46,947 nt of DNA from Verrucomicrobiota bacterium (GTDB lineage: Bacteria; Verrucomicrobiota; Verrucomicrobiia; Limisphaerales; UBA9464): NCBI GenBank assembly GCA_026397755.1, contig JAPLUF010000290.1, forward strand, positions 1 through 46,947, given 5' to 3'. Shown here in pieces: positions 7,165-26,972 of this stretch. The number at the start of each line of letters is the position of its first letter. Positions within the stretch are counted from its first letter, which is position 1. The notes under the pieces are model-generated. The model searched no databases. It saw only the letters and a program-made list of their open reading frames with translations, and was not told the DNA's origin. The position numbers were made by a program, and so were the translations under genes.

Positions 7165-7293
7165 CACCGGCGGCGGCGGGGCTGGACCGCAGCGAGCATC
7201 GGATCGCAGCACCCCAATCCCCATCGTGCGTCAGCGCGAAAGCCCCTGCCTTCCGAACGATCCCTGCGAGCGTAGGTCCAACCCCGCGGAGCC
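7165..7293 (+). repeat. Copy A of an interspersed structured repeat (concentric inverted arms)
   Basis: Aligns by hand to the reverse complement of 26841-26972 (about 93/117 identical in gap-free blocks). Arms: 7176-7188/7275-7287, 7201-7206/7258-7263, 7224-7229/7234-7239. Confidence 0.8.
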
Positions 7294-26596: not shown

Positions 26597-26640
26597 TTCG
26601 GAGTGGTCCCGTTTGTGGGGCTTTGCTTAAGAATTCAACG

Positions 26641-26679
26641 ACAACGGCGGCCAACTTTTGGCCGCCGTTGTGCTTTTTC
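26641..26679 (+). terminator. Intrinsic terminator downstream of tig
   Basis: Perfect 13-bp stem ACAACGGCGGCCA (26641-26653) / TGGCCGCCGTTGT (26659-26671), 5-nt loop ACTTT, followed by GCTTTTTC. Confidence 0.88.
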
Positions 26680-26840
26680 AGGGGCCAGTTTTCAGGGTCT
26701 GGGTTTCTAGTAATTGGAGTCCGCGGGAGCGATTCAGTGGGAGTGTTCCGGGTAGCACGGTGTGGTAGCCTGCTGGTTTTACGGTGTGCCGTTGTGAAGG
26801 TTTGTCTGCGGGTCTGGCGATGGCGGTGTAGGCCCGGTGG

Positions 26841-26972
26841 GGCTCCGCGGGGTCGGACCTGCGCTCGCTAGGGAACGTTGGGGCCGGTGGGGCTTTCGCG
26901 CGGCCGCGCGACGGGAATCAGGATGTGGACGTTCCAATGCTCACTCCGGTCCGGCCCCGCTGGCGCCCGGTG
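26841..26972 (-). repeat. Copy B of the interspersed structured repeat (concentric inverted arms)
   Basis: Arms 26847-26859/26948-26960, 26872-26878/26929-26935, and perfect 16-bp palindrome 26896-26911 TCGCGCGGCCGCGCGA. All are centred at 26903.5. Homologous to 7165-7293 in opposite orientation. Confidence 0.8.

Follow-up and report, generated by a model that had tools for sequence, protein, structure and literature searches.

A replication-oriented family of structured intergenic repeats in freshwater-lake Verrucomicrobiota that resembles REPINs

Two unrelated intergenic regions of the window, by which we mean the whole analyzed stretch of 46,947 nucleotides from a Verrucomicrobiota genome, had been noticed to share a structured repeat of about 130 bp. 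What is this repeat, and how did it become dispersed? The original prediction offered a MITE, a REP/BIME-like element or a dispersed structured RNA as possible answers. Re-reading of the sequence located the inverted arms of copy A at the positions given there, all centered at 7231.5-7232, and a recount of the two gap-free blocks shared by copies A and B yielded the same 28/35 and 23/31 identities. The similarity of both copies exceeds chance, as the local alignment score was 114, compared to a mean of 19.0 (sd 3.1, maximum 35, n = 1000) for shuffled sequences. The end-to-end match between both copies stood, while their ends were moved to 7169-7293 and 26967-26841, which are the limits of the covariance model and the positions where conservation drops. 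Copy A lies, as described before, between a gene for a protein with an N-methylation (pseudopilin-type) motif on the minus strand and ffh on the plus strand. When copy A was used as BLASTn query against its own genome (410 contigs, 3.79 Mb), 46 matches were obtained, and copies A and B matched each other with E = 2e-21. Many of the matches had a contig end at a distance of a few hundred bases or less, and several of them formed head-to-tail pairs. Hence, the two outcomes named beforehand as counter-evidence, a lack of further copies and shuffled sequences scoring alike, were both not observed. The features of the two copies are the following:

7169..7293, plus strand: copy A, with the subtype III core GGATCG/CGATCC (covariance model R1, 112 bits, E = 4e-19, copy A being part of the training set of this model; BLASTn to 45 other copies)
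7176..7188, plus strand: 5' arm of helix P1 of copy A, GCGGGGCTGGACC, pairing with 7275-7287 (changes on both sides in 7 of 13 P1 pairs among 113 copies)
7189..7197, plus strand: 5' strand of the GNA plus GCGAGC internal module of copy A (G.A and A.G pairs in 39/40, 39/40, 30/40 and 38/40 copies)
7201..7206, plus strand: 5' arm of helix P2 of copy A, GGATCG, one of three interchangeable helix types of the family
7224..7239, plus strand: terminal hairpin P3 of copy A, TCGTGC-GTCA-GCGCGA, with TCGTGC at 7224 and GCGCGA at 7234 (alignment)
7258..7263, plus strand: 3' arm of P2 of copy A, CGATCC (sequence)
7266..7274, plus strand: 3' strand of the GCGAGC plus GNA internal module of copy A (alignment of 40 copies)
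7275..7287, plus strand: 3' arm of P1 of copy A, GGTCCAACCCCGC (sequence)
7288..7293, plus strand: conserved 3' end of copy A, GGAGCC, which together with GGC of the 5' end forms the remainder in empty alleles
26841..26967, minus strand: copy B, with the subtype I core GGAACGT/ACGTTCC (BLASTn, covariance model; a subtype II core occupies the same site in three related species)
26948..26960, minus strand: 5' arm of P1 of copy B, GCGGGGCCGGACC (sequence, alignment)
26847..26859, minus strand: 3' arm of P1 of copy B, GGTCCGACCCCGC (sequence, alignment)

Close to copy B, at 26640-26680 of the window and following the trigger factor gene, there is a further strong inverted repeat, ACAACGGCGGCCAACTTTTGGCCGCCGTTGT, which is conserved in related genomes and is an ordinary terminator-like hairpin.

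An alignment of 40 copies from the same genome and the covariance model, a step already proposed in the original prediction, defined an element of about 123 bp with strong covariation and recovered many more copies. The element folds into a rod-like structure that has three helices and conserved G·A mismatches: P1 (13 pairs) is followed by a GNA/GNA loop, a GCGAGC/GCGAGC module with a tandem G.A mismatch at its center, P2 and the terminal hairpin. P2 comprises 6-7 pairs and occurs in three types (GGAACGT, GGAAGC(GA)/GGAGGC and GGATCG), and the terminal hairpin of the family reads TCGCGC-(3-4 nt)-GCGCGA. The mismatches are retained in 39 (G.A), 39 (A.G), 30 (G.A) and 38 (A.G) of the 40 copies. 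Changes on both sides of a pair occurred at 10 pairs in the 40-copy alignment, which was not fitted to the model (67 cells compared to 18.5 after shuffling). They occurred at 16 pairs, including 7/13 in P1 and 4/6 in P2, among 113 copies from G006, G010, G014 and G018 (181 cells compared to 57.7 ± 4.9, with none of 500 shuffles as high), an alignment that was fitted to model R1 and thus leans towards structure.

The deviating pairs also bear on the strand. In the solid helix columns, G.T combinations outnumber A.C combinations by 48 to 13 in a hand count from the alignment table that omits helix ends and misaligned columns; because of these latter columns, A.C is in excess over all columns (118 to 58). 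The wobble and G.A pairs thus point to the plus strand of the element as the one on which the fold is kept. RNA folding of four single copies gave z values of about -2.5 to -2.8 for the plus strand; DNA folding of single copies gave weaker and mixed z values, and the minus strand frequently reached a lower predicted folding energy than the plus strand. Beyond the element ends, little sequence conservation was observed. In line with the earlier statement that no known RNA family matches, Rfam, which may lack ERIC, returned no family for the element, neither at the gathering level nor at E ≤ 1.

The covariance model counted 78 copies in the genome of the window (G000) and 28-136 copies in each of ten related species (G001, 76; G002, 53; G003, 68; G006, 136; G010, 117; G011, 56; G014, 73; G015, 28; G017, 89; G018, 78). 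The earlier-branching G016 and G009 have 17 and 7 copies, respectively, and none were found by the model in six other species of the same genus (G004, G005, G007, G008, G012 and G013). A tree of ffh, from which G002 was omitted, places these six element-free species outside, with G009 and G016 next. This topology and the copy counts together make a single origin of the family within the genus, followed by expansion, probable. Among 286 genomes of the class, matches occurred only in the genome of the window and in G022 of a sister genus, and the other 284 gave no copy under filters stricter than those behind the covariance-model counts. In G022, a single full-length copy (L189:2680-2803) is preceded just upstream by an apparent truncated second copy. 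A strict-pattern search of 84,980 species gave, among the 80 matches listed, Verrucomicrobiota MAGs, many of them with lake sample names. The same pattern had no match in IMG/VR viral contigs, and a phage origin was rejected. Two MAGs titled 'Akkermansia muciniphila' (CAMCYJ01 and CAMATE01) have copies of the element on dozens of contigs and cluster here with lake Verrucomicrobiota; the species name in these titles is probably wrong. The element appears to be a so far undescribed, lineage-specific repeat family of a small clade of freshwater-lake Verrucomicrobiota. As most BLAST-detected copies in the genome of the window lie near contig ends, the repeat is a probable cause of assembly breaks, and its true copy number is probably higher than counted, which matters for genome work on uncultured lake Verrucomicrobiota.

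No copy overlapped a gene called by a home-made gene caller in the 1.39 Mb examined. The gene context, judged in the genome of the window from individual loci, is mixed and includes codirectional, convergent and divergent neighbors with copies in sense and antisense. Copies often form head-to-tail clusters that take in flanking sequence; Tandem Repeats Finder does not detect these since the spacers vary. We compared the orientation of clusters to the local strand-corrected GC3 skew, with three thresholds that were chosen once the data had been inspected. At a cut-off of |D| ≥ 0.08, 20/21 clusters of G010 (p = 2e-5), 12/12 of G006 (p = 5e-4) and 6/7 of G014 had the plus strand of the element on the G-poor strand; these numbers changed to 29/39, 15/17 and 9/10, respectively, when no cut-off was applied. 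Beside lagging-strand genes, six copies were in sense and one was in antisense orientation, and therefore the bias is not due to gene direction. The G-rich strand carries rpoB, rpoC and atpD, which are expected on the leading strand. The plus strand of the element is accordingly on the leading-strand template; IS608-type elements use the lagging template. Copy B obeys this orientation rule, copy A breaks it, and another off-orientation site (G010 C31, 41.9 kb) is retained in related species.

Comparison of single sites showed how copies come and go. The element occupies the site of copy A (site A) in G000, G006, G010, G014 and G017, while G018 and G001 have the remnant GGCRGAGCC, which corresponds to the outer ends of the element, and G003 has a similar short junction (locus L161). 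Filled and empty alleles together with the tree therefore give a history of a single gain followed by two or three losses, the latter as expected for deletion between the short repeats that border a palindrome at its base. No target duplication distinguishes filled from empty alleles, and the empty ones are probably losses rather than pre-insertion sites. At the site of copy B (window 26841-26967; L131, L132, L150, L135), the flanks are alike, and the core is of subtype I in G000 and G010 and of subtype II in G001, G014 and G002; such a core swap between conserved flanks suggests conversion between copies. At a further site, G010 and G017 retain the basal hairpin only, and a copy on C92 of G000 is missing from three relatives. 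None of the sites compared showed a clean new insertion paired with an intact empty site.

A search for a RAYT (Y1 transposase) gene, also proposed in the original prediction, was successful. The genome of the window has five Y1_Tnp genes, and one of these (L044:934-1869, minus strand) encodes a RAYT-type protein of 311 aa whose C-terminal part extends past the Pfam Y1_Tnp domain (41 bits) and which scores 47.8 bits with NCBIfam REP_Tyr_transpos, below its cut-off of 80. Copies at least 72% identical are present in 9/11 element-rich genomes and in 0/8 others; the exceptions among the element-rich genomes are G015, which lacks this RAYT, and G006, which has a 61%-identical homologue only. The RAYT of G016 is a 61%-identical homologue as well. 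The motif GTGTAAATAGGTGGGACCGACCCC occurs 25-35 nt upstream of the gene in all nine orthologues and flanks the RAYTs of G006, G016 and G004 on both sides in inverted orientation; judged from this placement, it is the REP of this RAYT family. The motif varies between genomes in step with the RAYT (flanks of loci L300-L311).

Through this motif the transposase is linked to the element. Of 30 REP motifs from element-rich genomes, 27 had a like-oriented element no more than 60 nt away; in a second sample, 23/36 were near an element. In five species (G000, G001, G010, G014 and G017), an element adjoins the RAYT gene and sits between two REP motifs upstream of it; in G018, G003 and G011, only the REP motif is present there. 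The motif is found 8-47 times in the nine RAYT genomes and 0-4 times elsewhere. Most copies of the element have no adjoining REP (30 REP compared to 171 element matches). As G015 possesses 28 elements with neither that RAYT nor the motif, and G006 has 136 elements with four REP matches, the element can persist without this RAYT/REP pair. A GGGACCG-type core shared by the element arms and the REP scored only marginally above shuffled sequences (4 to 30 of 400 shuffles were as good), and the arms were not regarded as derived from this REP. The GT[AG]G tag is absent from the hairpin foot, which reads GGCGGCA at the 5' side on one strand and GGCTCC on the other. The species G007, which lacks the 123-bp element, has sixteen RAYT-family matches, most of them truncated or with internal stop codons.

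Of the three options originally put forward, the REP/BIME-like one agrees best with the intergenic position of the copies, the compensatory changes in the arms, the clusters with flanks and the link to RAYT and REP; the dissimilarity of the arms to the REP and the missing tag do not agree with it. We suggest that the element belongs to a new family of REPIN/ERIC-like miniature DNA elements that probably depends on the RAYT, and put the probability of this whole chain at about 0.5. The element would be non-autonomous and REPIN-like, and the RAYT-type HuH Y1 transposase encoded once elsewhere in the genome, the best candidate for its mobilizer, would recognize it as single-stranded DNA at replication forks, in company with the REP motif of the enzyme. 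The fold may be kept because the enzyme or a replication step needs it, and the strand bias may reflect single-strand access on one fork arm. Several observations argue against this reading: the arms differ from the REP of the RAYT, most copies have no REP beside them, G015 and G006 are exceptions, the plus strand, favored as the folded one, is found on the leading-strand template and not, as in IS608-type elements, on the lagging one, and a clean new insertion into an untouched site was not found.

Alternatively, the element could be a hitchhiker with no enzyme recognizing it: RAYT/REP units nearby would assist its spread, which would proceed through gene conversion and through segmental and tandem duplications, and the bias would arise by selective loss of copies with the hairpin on the lagging-strand template. 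The head-to-tail clusters with flanks, the core exchange at site B between subtypes I (G000, G010) and II (G001, G014, G002), the losses and hairpin-only remnants, and the loss in three species of the very site at which copy A breaks the rule are consistent with this. We nevertheless consider it doubtful, since duplication alone does not readily explain about 40 distinct clusters that occupy unrelated intergenic regions in part of a single genome, and the off-orientation site of G010 is kept in relatives. Furthermore, the plus strand has no advantage in predicted hairpin energy, so that selective loss is left without its premise and, as a cause of the bias, unsupported. A structured DNA signal that gives the chromosome a dispersed replication polarity through a single-strand fold used at the fork, either as a selfish family dependent on fork direction or as a polar mark used by the host, and composed of the G.A-containing hairpin and the RAYT REP, seems quite unlikely to us. 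Very improbable is a replication-polar signal useful to the host, similar to KOPS or Ter sites and structured by chance: it would account for the strong orientation, the intergenic positions and the expansion along one lineage, but the element is missing in six congeneric species and almost all others, is freely lost at site A and is unevenly clustered.

An ERIC-like dispersed RNA, co-transcribed with its neighbors and acting on mRNA stability or termination, is unlikely. The compensatory changes, the tolerance of G.U on one strand, the sheared-type tandem G.A pairs, the GNA/GNNA loops and the folding z values of the plus strand in four copies would all suit an RNA. However, copy A has no promoter-like or terminator-like site (in particular, no intrinsic terminator was found), the element occurs in divergent, convergent, sense and antisense contexts, its orientation tracks replication and not genes, it has no Rfam match, and sequence outside of it is hardly conserved; a gene-regulatory role is correspondingly unlikely, and a riboswitch or cis-regulatory leader was rejected because of the mixed gene context. 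Least probable of all is that the element is a MITE of the DDE type, bounded by terminal inverted repeats, duplicating its target and mobilized by a full-length IS that shares its ends. The inverted arms of the element do extend close to its ends, yet the filled and empty alleles at site A, the one resolved site, differ without target duplication and the remainder represents the element's own outer ends. At the loci inspected individually, no transposase gene bracketed by two element ends was noticed.

The rise of this repeat family can be followed along one branch, from 0 to 7-17 and then to 28-136 copies. Because its orientation to replication is nearly uniform, simple counts, with no assay, could test how REPIN-like elements move.

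With the ends and the omega/reRNA of IS200/IS605 elements, the element shares the single-strand fold and the link to a HuH Y1 enzyme; in contrast to these, no TnpB family member scored above cut-off in 19 genomes of the genus. A TnpB omega-RNA was rejected, as the weak PF07282 (Cas12f1-like_TNB) matches across the genus (L352:181-2484; L350:709-3012, minus strand) resemble PriA helicase with its zinc-binding cysteines. Integron attC sites have arms of the form RYYYAAC...GTTRRRY; the arms of the element run opposite, and this candidate was rejected by eye.

RUP, Correia/NEMIS and other bacterial MITEs (PMC2229807) are similar in length class, copy number and intergenic preference; RUP differs in being tied to TA target sites and to an IS with similar ends, and no duplication is seen here at site A. 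ERIC/IRU, a 127-bp enterobacterial repeat (reviewed in PMC2229807), is nearly equal in length and likewise a long imperfect intergenic palindrome with no transposase of its own. Our element differs in that it occurs in Verrucomicrobiota and not in enterobacteria, is oriented to replication and is accompanied by RAYT and REP. The closest correspondence is to REPIN/BIME elements with RAYTs (Bertels and Rainey 2011, PMC3116915; Quentin et al. 2018, PMC6006769), which are also high-copy intergenic palindromes of about 100 bp with compensatory changes in their inverted arms, tandem clusters that include flanks and excision-like losses; as for these, a copy adjoins the RAYT gene (in five species) and most element-rich genomes have a single close orthologue of the RAYT. 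Different are the conserved tandem G.A modules, the strong replication-strand orientation, of which we found no description for REPINs in the literature searched, and the REP, which lies beside the element instead of forming its arms. The GT[AG]G tag is missing as well, as has been reported for class 2.6 and 3 REPs (PMC6006769). Because of the differing arms and the missing tag, we regard REPIN membership as not established and do not call the element a REPIN; by analogy, it appears to work like one.
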